DNA from: an uncultured Clostridia bacterium
Lineage (GTDB): Bacteria; Bacillota; Clostridia; TANB77; CAG-508
Direction of reading: 5' to 3'
Assembly (NCBI GenBank): GCA_904384205.1
Contig: CAJFJY010000018.1
Location: 1-41,130 of the forward strand
DNA: 41,130 nucleotides
In this document: in pieces, positions 7,900-17,514 of the stretch
Position numbering within the stretch: position 1 is the stretch's first letter
How the letters are laid out: the number at the start of each line of letters is the position of its first letter
Translations under genes and position numbers: made by a program
The notes under the pieces: model-generated
Told to the model about the DNA's origin: nothing
Seen by the model: only the letters and a program-made list of their open reading frames with translations
Database searches by the model: none

Positions 7900-7929
7900 A
7901 ATGAGGAAAGTTTTTTAACTTTCCTCATT
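7900..7929. terminator. Perfect 13-bp hairpin overlapping the 3' end of the aspartate kinase gene
   Basis: AATGAGGAAAGTT-TTTT-AACTTTCCTCATT; contains the minus-strand stop codon. Neither side has a strong T-tract, so terminator function is tentative. Confidence 0.5.
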
Positions 7930-8886
7930 AATTAATAATCTATGCATTTCTTCTAAATATTTATTTTCTACAATATTTTTAAAACAAATTGATACTTTAT
8001 TTTCATCTATATCAATATTAGAAACTTCTAATTTGTTTTTTTCTAAAAAGTCTAATATCTTTCTTAAGTTTTCAAAGTTCCTAATTATTCCATTACCTAT
8101 AATAGAAATTTTTGAAACATCTTTTTGTACAATACTTTTTACTGTATTTTCCTCAATTATATCAGAAATCATTGTTCCTGCTTTATTGTTAAATGTACAT
8201 TTTGTTATTATTGGGATTTTAAATTTTTCTCCTATTTCTACACATCTATTATGAAGAACTTTGGCACCTTCATTAGAAATCTCTAGCATTTCTTCGTACG
8301 ATAAAGCACTTAATTTTTTAGCATCAGGCAACTTATTGGGATCTGCGGTATAAACTCCATCAACATCAGAAAAAATGTAACAATTCTTAGCATTTAAAGC
8401 TGCTGCAATGGCCACAGCAGATGTATCTGAGCCTCCCCTCCCTATAGTTGTTATATCCATATTTTCATTTATCCCTTGAAAACCTGTTACTATTACGATT
8501 TTATTTTCTTCTAATTCTTTTAGAATTCTTGAAACATCAATATTTTCAATTATTGCATTTTTATTTGTATTATTTGTATAAACTCCTGCCTGCCATCCTG
8601 TAAGAGATATTGCCTTATATCCCATATGATTTAGCAATATACTTAATTTTGCTACCGATATTTGTTCTCCTGTACTTAATAGAACATCTAATTCCCTATC
8701 CTCAATATCTTCTGACAATTCTTTAGCTTCTTTAATCAATTTATCTGTTGTTTTACCTTGTGCAGATAATACAACTACAATTCTATGTCCTTTATTATAT
8801 AAATCAATTATTTTATTAGCTACTTGTTTTAATTTTTCGTTATCGGCTACTGAACTTCCTCCAAATTTTAATACTATTGTGTCCAT
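7915..8886 (-). CDS. Aspartate kinase with an apparently shortened regulatory region
   Basis: MDTIVLKFGGSSVAD, LSTGEQISVAKLS, TGWQAGVYT, TIGRGGSDTSAVAIAAALNA. Start placed at 8886; the ORF-track start at 8982 extends into a palindromic element. Confidence 0.92.
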   Translation of the reverse strand: MDTIVLKFGGSSVADNEKLKQVANKIIDLYNKGHRIVVVLSAQGKTTDKLIKEAKELSEDIEDRELDVLLSTGEQISVAKLSILLNHMGYKAISLTGWQAGVYTNNTNKNAIIENIDVSRILKELEENKIVIVTGFQGINENMDITTIGRGGSDTSAVAIAAALNAKNCYIFSDVDGVYTADPNKLPDAKKLSALSYEEMLEISNEGAKVLHNRCVEIGEKFKIPIITKCTFNNKAGTMISDIIEENTVKSIVQKDVSKISIIGNGIIRNFENLRKILDFLEKNKLEVSNIDIDENKVSICFKNIVENKYLEEMHRLLINEES

Positions 8887-8920
8887 AAATACTATCATTC
8901 CTTTCCTAAGACACAAATCC

Positions 8921-9043
8921 GGTTGGAAAAGAATTAAATTTTGGCTGGGCAAACAAATTTGAAATTTATGAGGCGTACTCATGTACGTTGATTAAATTTC
9001 AAATGAAGTTTAACGACGCCAAAATTGTAATTATTTTTCAACC
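8921..9043. repeat. Long imperfect palindrome (REP/MITE-like) upstream of the aspartate kinase gene
   Basis: Arms GGTTGGAAAAGAATTAAATTTTGGC... and the reverse complement of ...GCCAAAATTGTAATTATTTTTCAACC; central GCGTACtcatGTACG; further matching segments AAATTTGAAATTTA / TTAAATTTCAAAT. Confidence 0.75.
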
Positions 9044-11957: not shown

Positions 11958-14705
11958 TTATTGGTTTCTTCCATGGCAATTCTTATATTTCTTTCCACTT
12001 CCACATGGGCATGGGTCATTTCTTCCTATTTTTGGTCCTTCATTTACAACTGTTCTATTTTCTTTTGCCTCAATTGTTTTACCATTATCTACACTATTTA
12101 TTGCTTGTAAAGCCGCATTTGTTATTTTAGCAGTTTCTTGACGTCTAACTTCTCCTTGTTTTCTAATGTTCATCAAAATTTTAACTACATCAACTTTAAT
12201 ATTTGCAGTCATTTCTTCGAACATATCCATGCCTTCCATTCTGTACTTAACAACAGGATCTTGTTGACCATATGCACGAAGACCAATACCATTCTTTAAT
12301 TCGTCCATACTGTCTATATGGTTCATCCATTTTTCATCAACAACTTTTAATAGAACAATTCTTTCAAGCTCTCTCATTTCTTCAGAACCAATTTCTTGTT
12401 CTTTTTCTTCATATTTTTTATTAGCTTCATTTACAAGTTCTTCTTTAACTGCATTTACATCTTTTTGATGTCCTTTTATAAATTCTGCCATATCAATTCC
12501 AAAAGTATTTAATATTTCAGAACTTAAAGATTCCATATTTAAAGAATTGTGATCTTCACCTTCTACAAACATTTCTACTGTTTCTTCTGCTATAGAATTA
12601 ATCATATTTTTGATATTGTCATGCATATTCTCTCCGTCTAAAACTTCTCTTCTTTGTTTATAGATAATTTCTCTTTGAACATTCATAACATCATCATATT
12701 TTAATACATTCTTTCTTATTGTGAAATTTCTACCTTCTACTTTCTTTTGAGCATTTTCTACTGCTTTTGAAATTAATTTTGCTTGTATTGGCATATTTTC
12801 ATCTGCACCTAGAGTATTGTATACCTTTGTAATTGCATCTCCACCAAAGATTTTCATTAAATCATCATCTAGGCTTATATAGAATTGTGATTCTCCTATG
12901 TCTCCTTGACGTCCAGAACGACCTCTTAACTGATTATCAATTCTTCTTGATTCATGCCTTTCTGTACCAATTATTTTTAATCCACCAGCATCAATTACTT
13001 TTTGTTTTTCATCTTTTATTTGTTCATCATATTTTTTTACTAATGTATTAAATTGCTCCCTTGCCCTTAATATATCTTGGTCACCTGTTTCATAATATGT
13101 GTTAGATTCCTCAATTAAATTATCTGGAACTTTTTTCTTTCTCATTTCTTCTTTTGCTAAATATTCACTGTTACCTCCAAGCATAATGTCAGTACCACGA
13201 CCAGCCATGTTTGTTGCTATTGTAACTGCTCCAAATTTACCTGCTTGTGCGATAATCATAGCCTCTTTTTCATGTGATTTAGCATTTAATACTTCATGTG
13301 GTATTCTTTCTTTTTGTAATAATTTACTTAATTTTTCAGATTTTTCAATAGATACTGTACCTATTAATACTGGTTGACCTTTTGCATGACTTTCTTTTAC
13401 GTCATTTACTACTGCTCTAAATTTTGCATCTTGGTTTTTGTAAATAACATCATTTTTATCATTACGTATCATTGGTTTGTTTGTAGGAATGCTAACTACA
13501 TCTAAGTTATATATTTCTTCAAATTCTGCTTCTTCTGTCATAGCTGTACCTGTCATACCAGATAATTTATCATACATCCTAAAATAATTTTGGAATGTGA
13601 TTGTTGCAAGTGTTTTTGATTCATCTGCTATTTTTACGTGTTCTTTTGCTTCTATTGCTTGATGTAATCCATTGTTGTATCTTCTACCATACATTATACG
13701 ACCTGTGAATTCATCAACTATTAATACTTCTCCATCTTTTACGATATAATCAATATCTTTTTTCATAATTCCATGAGCACGCAATGCTTGATTTACGTGA
13801 TGTACTAATGTTGAGTTTTCTAAGTCATTGAAGTTTTCTAGTTTGAAGTATTCTTCTGCTTTTTTAATACCTTTTTGTGTTAATGATGCAGATTTTGCTT
13901 TTAAGTCAACTATATAGTCATACTTTTCATTATCCTCTGCCTGTTCGAAATCTTTTACATCTTCTTCAACTATAACTTTTGGTTCCAAAGTTCTTACAAA
14001 ACTATCTGCTTTTTTGTACAAATCTGATGACTCGTTTGCACGACCTGAAATTATAAGTGGTGTACGTGCTTCATCTATTAAAATACTATCAATCTCATCT
14101 ATGATTGCATAGTGTAAATCTCTTTGTACTAATTGATTTTTATAAATTGCCATATTATCTCTTAGATAATCAAATCCAAATTCATTGTTTGTGCCATAAG
14201 TAATATCTGCTGCATATGCTTTTTGCTTTTGAGCAGGTTCCATTCCAGCAATTACTAGACCAACTGATAAACCTAAGAATTTATATAATTTTCCCATCCA
14301 TTCGCTGTCTCTTTTTGCTAAGTAATCATTAACAGTAATTACATGAACTCCTTTTCCCTCTAACGCATTTAAATAAACTGGTAAAGTAGCAACCAATGTT
14401 TTACCTTCACCTGTTTTCATTTCTGCAATTCTACCTTGATGTAAGATTATACCACCTATTAATTGAACATCAAAATGTCTCATACCTAATGCTCTCTTTG
14501 ATGCTTCTCTTACCACTGCAAATGCTTCTGGTAATATATCATCAAGCGTTTTTCCATTAGCTAATTCTTGTTTAAAATAATCTGTTTTTTGTCTTAATTC
14601 ATGATCACTTAATTTAGACATTTCGTCTTCCATGCCATTTATTTTCTGTACTATTGGCATTACTCTTTTAACTTCTTTTTCACTATATGTTTTAAATAAT
14701 CCCAT
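11958..14705 (-). CDS. secA: Preprotein translocase subunit SecA
   Basis: 915 aa; [49 protein letters not shown]-terminal zinc-binding tail [18 protein letters not shown]. Confidence 0.99.
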
Positions 14706-14861
14706 TTTGTTTTGATTCCTCCTAAGTTTATTTTTTTACTCTGTTACTATATCACTAAATCACTAATTTAGCAAGTATTTTAGGTAAATTGATTATAAAA
14801 TATAGTAATAAAAAATTAATTGTTGAATAAGATTAGAAAAAACATATAAAGGAGTTAAATT

Positions 14862-15407
14862 ATGTTTATATATAATGTGAAAATAAATGGAAGTAAAGTT
14901 TTTAAATACTTTTTTACAGGAGTTATTATATTAATAATTTGTATCTTGTGTATTGTCTTATTTAGAATTTTTAGTGGTGCTGGAAATGCTAATGATTCTA
15001 GTTGTTTGCCTCAAAACGATGTTTTTGAAATATCTTCAAAAAATTATACTAATGTTCTAAAAACTGTTCATGATGATATTGATACATATGTTGGAATGAA
15101 AATTAAATTTACTGGATATGTATATAGAGTTTCAGATTTAACCGATAACCAATTTGTTTTAGCAAGAGATATGATAATATCTTCCGATTATCAATCTGTT
15201 ATTGTTGGCTTTCTATGCGAATGTGATAATGCTAAAGATTTTGATGATGAAGTTTGGGTTCAAGTTACAGGTGAAATTACAAAAGGAAATTATCATGGAG
15301 ATATGCCTATTCTAAATGTTCAAGAAATTCAAAAAGTTAGCACTCCATCAGAAGAATATGTTTATCCTCCAGATGAAGATTATGTGCCAACAAGTGCAGG
15401 CTTATAA
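14862..15407 (+). CDS. Membrane-anchored protein resembling the C-terminal domain of TIGR03943/YcgQ-type proteins
   Basis: N-terminal TM helix; YVGMKIKFTGYVYRVSDLTDNQFVLARDMIISS ... WVQVTGEI resembles an OB-like domain; RBS AAAGGAG. Confidence 0.55.
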   Translation: MFIYNVKINGSKVFKYFFTGVIILIICILCIVLFRIFSGAGNANDSSCLPQNDVFEISSKNYTNVLKTVHDDIDTYVGMKIKFTGYVYRVSDLTDNQFVLARDMIISSDYQSVIVGFLCECDNAKDFDDEVWVQVTGEITKGNYHGDMPILNVQEIQKVSTPSEEYVYPPDEDYVPTSAGL

Positions 15408-15430
15408 AACAATATTATACTTATTCTAAT

Positions 15431-15459
15431 TTGATAAATTATGTTAATTATGTTATAAT
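15431..15459 (+). promoter_or_regulatory. Putative vegetative promoter for the 15495 gene
   Basis: TTGATA-17 nt-TATAAT, about 35 bp upstream of the start codon. Confidence 0.55.
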
Positions 15460-15494
15460 TTATATATAAACAATTGATTAAGGAGGGTACATTT

Positions 15495-15899
15495 ATGGCT
15501 AAATTTAATTGCCTGACATATGCATTGAAAATTGAGGGAATTCTCCCTCCTCACACTATTGTTGAAGATTTGGAGTGGTACAGAACACCTCTTCAAGCCT
15601 TGCAAATTTTTGGGCGGAAATATTTATTAGATTTTAGAGAAATCTCGCCCAATGATCCTATGAGTGACAACGAGTGGTTAGTAGCCTTTTTTGGATTTGT
15701 CCCATGTGAATGGGATTATGAAAGAAGGGTTACTCGGCGGGACTATCATCTCGTACTATACGAAAATGGTATTTGGACTCACAGGATGACATGGGGTGCC
15801 GATTCTACGGAAGCAAATTTCGACGAATTGGTAACAGCTTATTCATCAGCTGGATACCCGCCTCACTACTTTGCTGTCAAGCGGAATGCGGAAAAGTAA
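15495..15899 (+). CDS. Small protein of unknown function with Cys/His peptidase-like motifs
   Basis: RBS AAGGAGGG before ATG 15495. FNCLTYALK near the N-terminus and RDYHLVLYENGIWTHRMTWGADS later; clearly higher GC than its neighbours. Confidence 0.7.
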   Translation: MAKFNCLTYALKIEGILPPHTIVEDLEWYRTPLQALQIFGRKYLLDFREISPNDPMSDNEWLVAFFGFVPCEWDYERRVTRRDYHLVLYENGIWTHRMTWGADSTEANFDELVTAYSSAGYPPHYFAVKRNAEK

Positions 15900-15913
15900 T
15901 ACTTTTCCGCATT
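15885..15913 (+). terminator. Perfect 13-bp hairpin containing the stop codon of the 15495 gene
   Basis: AATGCGGAAAAGT-AAT-ACTTTTCCGCATT followed by TTCTTT. Confidence 0.8.
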
Positions 15914-15975
15914 TTCTTTACTTTTTTAATATTTTATGATACAATTTTTGTATATTATTTGTGGAGGTAAAAAAA

Positions 15976-17514
15976 TTGGAAAATAATGAATTAATTTTAA
16001 TTTTGGATTTTGGTGGACAATATAACCAATTAATCGCAAGAAGAGTTAGAGAATGTAATGTTTATTCAGAAGTAGTACCTTACAACATATCTATTGAAAA
16101 AATAAAAGAAAAAAATCCTAAAGGAATAATATTTACAGGAGGACCAGCAAGTGTATTTGGTGAAAATTCCCCAAAATGTGCAGATGGTATATTTGATTTA
16201 GGAATTCCTGTGCTTGGAATTTGTTATGGAATGCAACTTATGACATATACTCTAGGAGGAAAGGTTCAAAAAGCTGATAAAAGAGAATATGGAACAACTA
16301 AAGTAGAAATTGATAATACTTCTCCCCTATTTCAAGGATTTGACACAACAAATGATTTTCTAATGAGCCATACAGATTTCGTATCTGAAGTTCCATCTGG
16401 ATTTAGAAATATTGGAAAAACTGAACATTGTCCTAATGCAGCTATGGAAAATTTAGAAAGAAACTTATATGGTATTCAATTTCATCCTGAAGTTAATTTG
16501 TCAGTCAATGGAACTAAAGTTATAAAGAATTTCTTATTTAATATTTGTAAGTGCTCAGGAGATTGGCAGATTTCGTCCTTTGTAGAAGAAAGCATTAAAA
16601 ATTTGAAAGAAAAAATTGGAGATAAAAAAGCTTTATGCGCTTTATCTGGAGGAGTAGATTCATCAGTTGCTGCTGTTTTACTACATAAAGCGATTGGAAA
16701 AAATTTAACTTGTATTTTTGTTGACCATGGTCTTCTTCGTAAAAATGAGGGTGATGAAGTTGAGCATGTTTTTAGAAATCAATTTGATATAAATTTAATT
16801 AGAGTAAATGCAAAAGATAGATTTTTATCAAAACTTGCTGGTGTAACAGACCCTGAAAGAAAAAGAAAAATTATCGGAGAAGAATTTATCAGAGTTTTTG
16901 AAGAAGAAGCTAAAAAGATTGGTACAGTAGATTTTTTGGTACAAGGTACTATTTATCCTGATGTTATAGAAAGTGGATTAGGAAAAAGTTCTGTTATAAA
17001 AAGTCATCATAATGTCGGAGGATTACCTGACTATGTTGATTTTAAAGAAATCGTTGAACCACTAAGAAACTTATTTAAAGACGAAGTTCGTCAAACTGGT
17101 TTAGAGTTAGGAATACCTGAAAATTTAGTATTTAGACAACCTTTCCCTGGTCCAGGTTTAGCTATTAGAATTATTGGCGACATTACTGAAGATAAATTAA
17201 ATATCTTAAAAGATGCTGATAGCATTTTTAGAGAAGAAATTGCAAATGCCGGACTTCATAAATCTATAAATCAATATTTTGCAGTTTTAACAAATTTAAA
17301 ATCTGTTGGTGTTATGGGTGATGAAAGAACTTATGATTATACTATTGCACTTCGTGCAGTAGAAACTACCGATTTTATGACTGGTGTTTGGAGTAAAATT
17401 CCATATTCAGTTTTAGAAAAAGTTTCTTCTAGAATTGTAAATGAAGTAAAACATGTAAATAGGGTTGTCTATGATATAACTTCCAAACCACCAGCAACAA
17501 TTGAATGGGAATAA
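15976..17514 (+). CDS. guaA: GMP synthase (glutamine-hydrolysing)
   Basis: GATase ([16 protein letters not shown]) and ATP-PPase ([11 protein letters not shown]) motifs; C-terminus [17 protein letters not shown] suggests a TTG start at 15976 rather than GTG 15961. Confidence 0.98.

Follow-up and report, generated by a model that had tools for sequence, protein, structure and literature searches.

The gene at positions 15495–15899 of the window (the whole 41 130-nucleotide stretch of DNA analysed, in which features lie on the plus strand unless stated otherwise) encodes a 134-residue protein, P0001, and forms a single transcription unit inserted upstream of guaA. The best overall explanation, which is considered likely, is that of an acquired one-gene cassette encoding a small stand-alone cytosolic enzyme of the papain-like type, possibly for use in conflict. 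P0001 belongs to a divergent family in which a cysteine and a histidine are conserved in nearly every member.

The gene is defined by the open-reading-frame call, its translation and a match to the family profile (E = 1.1 × 10−42, with P0001 itself included in the building of the profile). The reading frame extends from an ATG at 15495 to a TAA stop codon at 15897–15899. A Shine–Dalgarno sequence (AGGAGG, 15481–15486) is found 8 nt 5′ of the ATG and is preceded by a sigma-70-type promoter (TTGATA-17-TATAAT, 15431–15459), assigned by consensus match only, with 11 of 12 consensus bases and an extended −10 TG. Promoter-like sites occur in this region in close to the number expected by chance (four versus 3.0); what sets this one apart is its quality and position alone. 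Repeat search and folding identify an intrinsic terminator hairpin at 15885–15913, the arms of which, AATGCGGAAAAGT (15885–15897) and ACTTTTCCGCATT (15901–15913), form 13 perfect pairs enclosing an AAT loop and are followed on the 3′ side by a T-rich tail. The stop codon falls within this structure, with its T forming the last pair and its AA lying in the loop. The hairpin has a folding energy of −20.7 kcal/mol (z = −5.9), which none of 200 shuffled sequences equalled. Terminators that overlap the stop codon are rare in the genome of the window (7 of 356 reading frames). Elsewhere in the window, a minus-strand reading frame of 355 residues and ordinary GC content (7915–8982) also has its stop codon in a hairpin loop, that of a terminator with a 14-bp stem. 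An Rfam search of positions 14700–16100 gave no match.

The gene also stands out in composition. Against a background of 357 reading frames of at least 90 residues, collected across the window and some 370 kb more of the same genome, its GC content of 0.416 ranks first (background 0.275 ± 0.033; z = 4.3) and its GC3 of 0.383 ranks second (background 0.142 ± 0.036; z = 6.7). The initial annotation of this DNA had described a gene richer in GC than its neighbours, with its own promoter and a perfect 13-bp terminator hairpin holding the TAA in the loop, and had pointed to the peptides NCLTYA, RDYHLVLY and GIWTHR; all of these were recovered here, as was its suggestion of a self-contained cassette before guaA, which the empty sites described below bear out.

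The gene upstream (14862–15407), which lies outside the cassette, encodes a DUF1980_C/TIGR03943-like protein (Pfam E = 2.7 × 10−28) with a hydrophobic N-terminal stretch. Downstream lies guaA (15976–17514), which encodes GMP synthase; matches to it were found in 46 of the 59 genomes searched in the genus, most with 79–94% identity. In other members of the genus, the gap between these two genes is only 64–68 bp (L115 and L109) or 92–95 bp (L093 and L096), whereas in the window it measures 571 bp. The additional segment of about 500 bp runs from just past the stop codon of the DUF1980_C gene to the guaA promoter and constitutes one transcription unit (promoter, ribosome site, reading frame and terminator; 15408–15915, bounds approximate). 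It abuts a promoter-like site of guaA that was found by promoter scan (TTTACT-17-TACAAT, 15917–15945); the sequence TTTACTTT...TATGATA also occurs 5′ of guaA in relatives. The segment was thus probably acquired horizontally as a one-gene cassette. No transposase or recombinase gene was seen adjoining it in the window. An integron cassette was considered because the P0001 stop codon lies in an inverted repeat, and was ruled out: a T-rich run follows the repeat, which is the pattern of a terminator, and the unit lacks flanking direct repeats.

The gap between DUF1980_C and guaA is a variable spot, the content of which differs from species to species: another gene is present in L092, small GC-rich reading frames in L110 and a 98-residue GC-rich reading frame on the opposite strand in L099. 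The last of these (L099, 3211–3507) and a reading frame adjoining guaA in another species (L172, 1137–1457) are unrelated, small and GC-rich (0.39–0.41), and gave no match in a Pfam search; they are possibly other cassettes at the same spot. In L116 the gap is 369 bp long and lacks an obvious reading frame; inverted repeats and another promoter-like stretch are present there, which may represent a small RNA or a decayed insert.

Searches with P0001 alone produced no matches in Pfam, NCBIfam, PHROGs, the PADLOC models of anti-phage defence systems or the PDB sequences, and none by tblastn or pattern searches in phages, plasmids, and viral and genome contigs. A tblastn search of related genomes with P0001 gave faint relatives, from which an alignment (A1) and a profile were built; of the 243 genomes searched in the bacterial family, 46 gave hits to the profile. 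No stretch in alignments A1–A3 was conserved enough for a pattern scan, and the full DNA pattern of the family was scanned against viral contigs only. The final alignment comprises 50 members from the one bacterial family, to which six were added from viral contigs and one MAG (56 rows). A match of one relative to DpdH in PADLOC (E = 1.7 × 10−4) was taken as chance.

The family signature is N-C-x-x-[YFH]-[AS] ... [DG]-[FYW]-H-[FWL]-x-R ... G-x-W-x-[HE]-K. Cys6 of the NC motif (codon 15510–15512), the predicted nucleophile, is a cysteine in all 56 rows and is preceded by asparagine in 53. His85 of the DYH motif (codon 15747–15749), the predicted catalytic base, is conserved in 55 rows. Loss of either residue among homologs had been set in advance as grounds for rejecting a catalytic pair, and both proved to be conserved. 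His96 of the GIWTH motif (codon 15780–15782) is, from the alignment and models, a possible third catalytic residue; this position holds His in 34 rows, Glu in 17, Gln in three and Asn in one (55 of 56 in total), and the signature tryptophan (Trp94 in P0001) is present in 53. P0001 deviates from the family at three positions that are otherwise strongly conserved (Arg88 to Leu, Lys97 to Arg and Gly99 to Thr), has only four residues before the NC motif and sits on a long branch of the tree. A second member in the genome of the window (L061, 1554–1991 of contig C36) is flanked by tsf and pyrH within the ancient operon rpsB-tsf-pyrH-frr-uppS; its stop codon, too, falls in the loop of a terminator hairpin of its own.

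Features of the cassette recur across the family. Members are richer in GC than their flanks at 47 of 50 loci (Wilcoxon P = 4 × 10−13). A terminator is found at the stop codon in 24 of 49 members versus 28 of 356 background reading frames, and overlaps the stop codon in 18 of 49 versus 7 of 356 (Fisher P = 3 × 10−13), with the background drawn from one genome and the members from many, and with the higher GC content of the members itself possibly favouring stems. The survey of genomic context that had been proposed for the homologs showed the members to be solitary, with household genes as neighbours that differ from locus to locus and no recurrent partner seen at any of the 50 loci.

The fold was approached through a relative, L087, for which an AF2 model built from an alignment of nine sequences reached a pTM of 0.78. 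In this model a helix (residues 24–28) begins at Cys24 and is followed by a long helix, and strands are formed by residues 86–91, 102–110, 113–119 (which includes His115) and 125–128. The model of P0001 itself, from an alignment with one relative, is of such low quality (pLDDT 48) that it cannot be relied on; it shows a helix at 6–13 and strands at 61–66, 83–90 and 93–99, in the same order as in L087. Position 96 falls on or beside the strand after the histidine strand in both the L087 model and the weak P0001 model. In papain-like families the core helix invariably begins at the cysteine, any of N, Q, D, E, S or H may occupy the third position, and catalytic dyads also occur (PMC10318531). 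The cysteine stands at the start of the core helix in the L087 model, and likewise in the weak P0001 model, and the conserved histidine follows it on the sheet (55 of 56 rows; strand 113–119 of L087). A Foldseek search of the PDB with the L087 model gave the C39 domains of PCAT1 and ComA as best matches, with USPs, coronavirus PLpro, MepS and AvrRpt2 making up most of those that came next, all of them papain-like; the best E value was 0.017, with TM-scores of about 0.3. In the viral library three proteins had E values below 0.001, one of them a giant-virus protein (Hokovirus) with a similar predicted fold.

The initial annotation had proposed a papain/NlpC-like Cys-His active site, to be examined by structure prediction and fold search. 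Its papain-like part is favoured by the conservation, the L087 model, with Cys at the helix start and His on a later strand, and the mostly papain-fold PDB neighbours, whereas no PDB match reached E < 0.001, the P0001 model is poor, and Pfam and profile comparisons give no support to NlpC/P60 membership. Because of the Cys/His conservation, the modelled fold of L087 and its papain-type neighbours, P0001 is likely to be a papain-like Cys-His enzyme. A papain-like fold for the family is highly probable from these data, and from sequence and models P0001 would rather be expected to be active than inactive.

The resemblance to NlpC/P60 (PF00877) is one of layout: the cysteine starts a helix, the histidine is on the sheet and a second histidine follows about a dozen residues later on the next strand; the best local profile alignment covers this His-strand-His hairpin. 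The P0001 family differs in lacking the DCSG and GHVGIY motifs and a Pfam match, and hhalign of its profile against NlpC/P60 (represented by only five sequences) gave a nonsignificant probability of 0.1%. P0001 is therefore not filed in NlpC/P60, and from its sequence it is described as NlpC-like in layout (C-H-H) rather than as a member. The nearest named family is DUF7689 (PF24738), to which seven of 15 central relatives match at E values of up to 1 (best 3.9 × 10−8); one relative scores above the curated cut-off in the genome survey and the other paralog of the window's genome matches at 8 × 10−4, but P0001 itself gave no match in the Pfam search and falls short of the curated cut-off. DUF7689 has no described function, and a literature search found no paper naming it. 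The C39 peptidase domains of PCAT1 and ComA, the top fold matches of the L087 model (probability up to 0.84), share only about 10% identity with it at E = 0.017, and no ABC transporter or leader-peptide system adjoins the P0001 gene. Tox-PL1 (PMC3482391) is likewise papain-like, with NC followed by H in its signature and a related placement ending the RHS protein L084, but its full signature is NC-H-DxQ; DxQ is not seen in P0001, which has no Pfam match and is encoded by a stand-alone gene.

The domain also occurs more widely. Among the viral contigs, the DNA-pattern scan located it in some that resemble giant viruses or phages, and also as the C-terminal part of an RHS-repeat protein (L084), these labels being read from the sequences and not from annotation. 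A variant of the pattern with one codon fewer between the Arg and the Gly picked up a secreted relative of correspondingly shorter spacing in a Eubacteriales genome (L081). In a gut phage (PV036447.1; L198, 2024–4222) the domain ends a 732-residue protein, encoded two genes past the holin, that probably starts with a signal sequence and weakly matches a trypsin-like domain.

The gene, its cassette, the family and the conserved Cys/His pair are shown by the data, the fold of P0001 itself, its catalysis and its role being inferred. In the proposed mechanism, the segment would have arrived horizontally as a one-gene cassette, and its product would be a small cytosolic enzyme built on a trimmed papain-like fold. 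Cys6, opening the core helix, would act as nucleophile, His85 on the following sheet as base and His96 on the next strand as the likely orienting residue, giving a C-H-H arrangement as in NlpC/P60 enzymes. P0001 would most likely hydrolyse or transfer an amide or acyl bond of an intracellular target, as a peptidase, amidase or deamidase, and would serve conflict (defence, counter-defence or competition) and not housekeeping. A role in conflict is suggested because the gene moves as a single unit under its own promoter and terminator, shows a patchy distribution and evolves fast, and because the domain also ends an RHS-repeat protein and a secreted phage protein and occurs in giant-virus-like contigs. 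The argument is circumstantial, with no PADLOC match for P0001 and household genes as neighbours, and this role is put forward tentatively, as a possibility somewhat short of an even chance.

Immediately 5′ of guaA there are four members, two on its own strand (P0001 and L114) and two divergent ones in other genera (L003 and L147/L173). L114 (953–1429), from the same genus, has a promoter, a GC-rich reading frame (0.40) and its stop codon in the terminator loop, and is flush with the guaA promoter. In the tree L003 and L147 are firmly joined, P0001 joins them weakly and L114 is placed elsewhere; there were therefore probably at least two separate arrivals at guaA. The recurrence in at least two tree lineages might reflect a functional partnership with GuaA, such as acting on or being co-regulated with GMP synthase. 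Most members, however, adjoin other genes (tsf-pyrH and many others), and a member precedes guaA at only two of 30 loci in the genus, the spot otherwise holding unrelated small GC-rich reading frames (L099 and L110) or nothing. This distribution fits an insertion hotspot on the 5′ side of guaA, a functional link being a minor and very unlikely rival. In related genera guaA itself is patchy (five of 31 genomes in g19 and two of four in g12, some of them incomplete) and seems to have been gained or lost often.

The same cassette could also carry a protein that no longer works. The three changed positions, short N-terminus and long branch mean that P0001 could be a decayed or inactive member, retained for binding or simply drifting; yet its reading frame, promoter, ribosome site and terminator are intact, and Cys6, His85, His96, Trp94 and the asparagine before the cysteine are all retained, so that a dead remnant is unlikely. 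The cysteine and histidine might instead serve metal binding or structure in a non-papain fold, as neither sequence nor fold comparison gave a significant match to a solved structure. This too is unlikely: both residues come in the order, and sit on the secondary-structure elements, expected of a papain core, and papain-like peptidases are strongly over-represented among the weak fold matches. Equally doubtful is a delivered effector of the polymorphic-toxin type acting in other cells. Papain-like domains are well known as toxin domains (PMC3482391) and the same domain ends the RHS-repeat protein L084, but such toxins are C-terminal domains of delivered proteins accompanied by an immunity gene, whereas P0001 is a stand-alone protein of 134 residues in which neither a delivery domain nor a signal peptide is visible, and the 50 loci show no recurring neighbour as a candidate immunity gene.

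A small papain-like enzyme on an acquired cassette, the preferred reading, would tie a barely described DUF to a well-known catalytic fold, with a clear prediction for Cys6, His85 and His96. The build shared by the cassettes, with no adjoining mobility gene in the window, invites one to ask by what route single genes pass from one gap among household genes to another in small AT-rich genomes. A broader scheme, in which mobile one-gene cassettes of shared build (a GC-rich reading frame with its stop codon in its own terminator) drop into gaps between household genes, preferring the 5′ side of guaA, and carry unrecognized solo papain-like enzymes for defence or conflict, is speculative and has a low likelihood as a whole. 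If the role of P0001 is indeed in defence or conflict, the family would represent a small solo system that present libraries miss.
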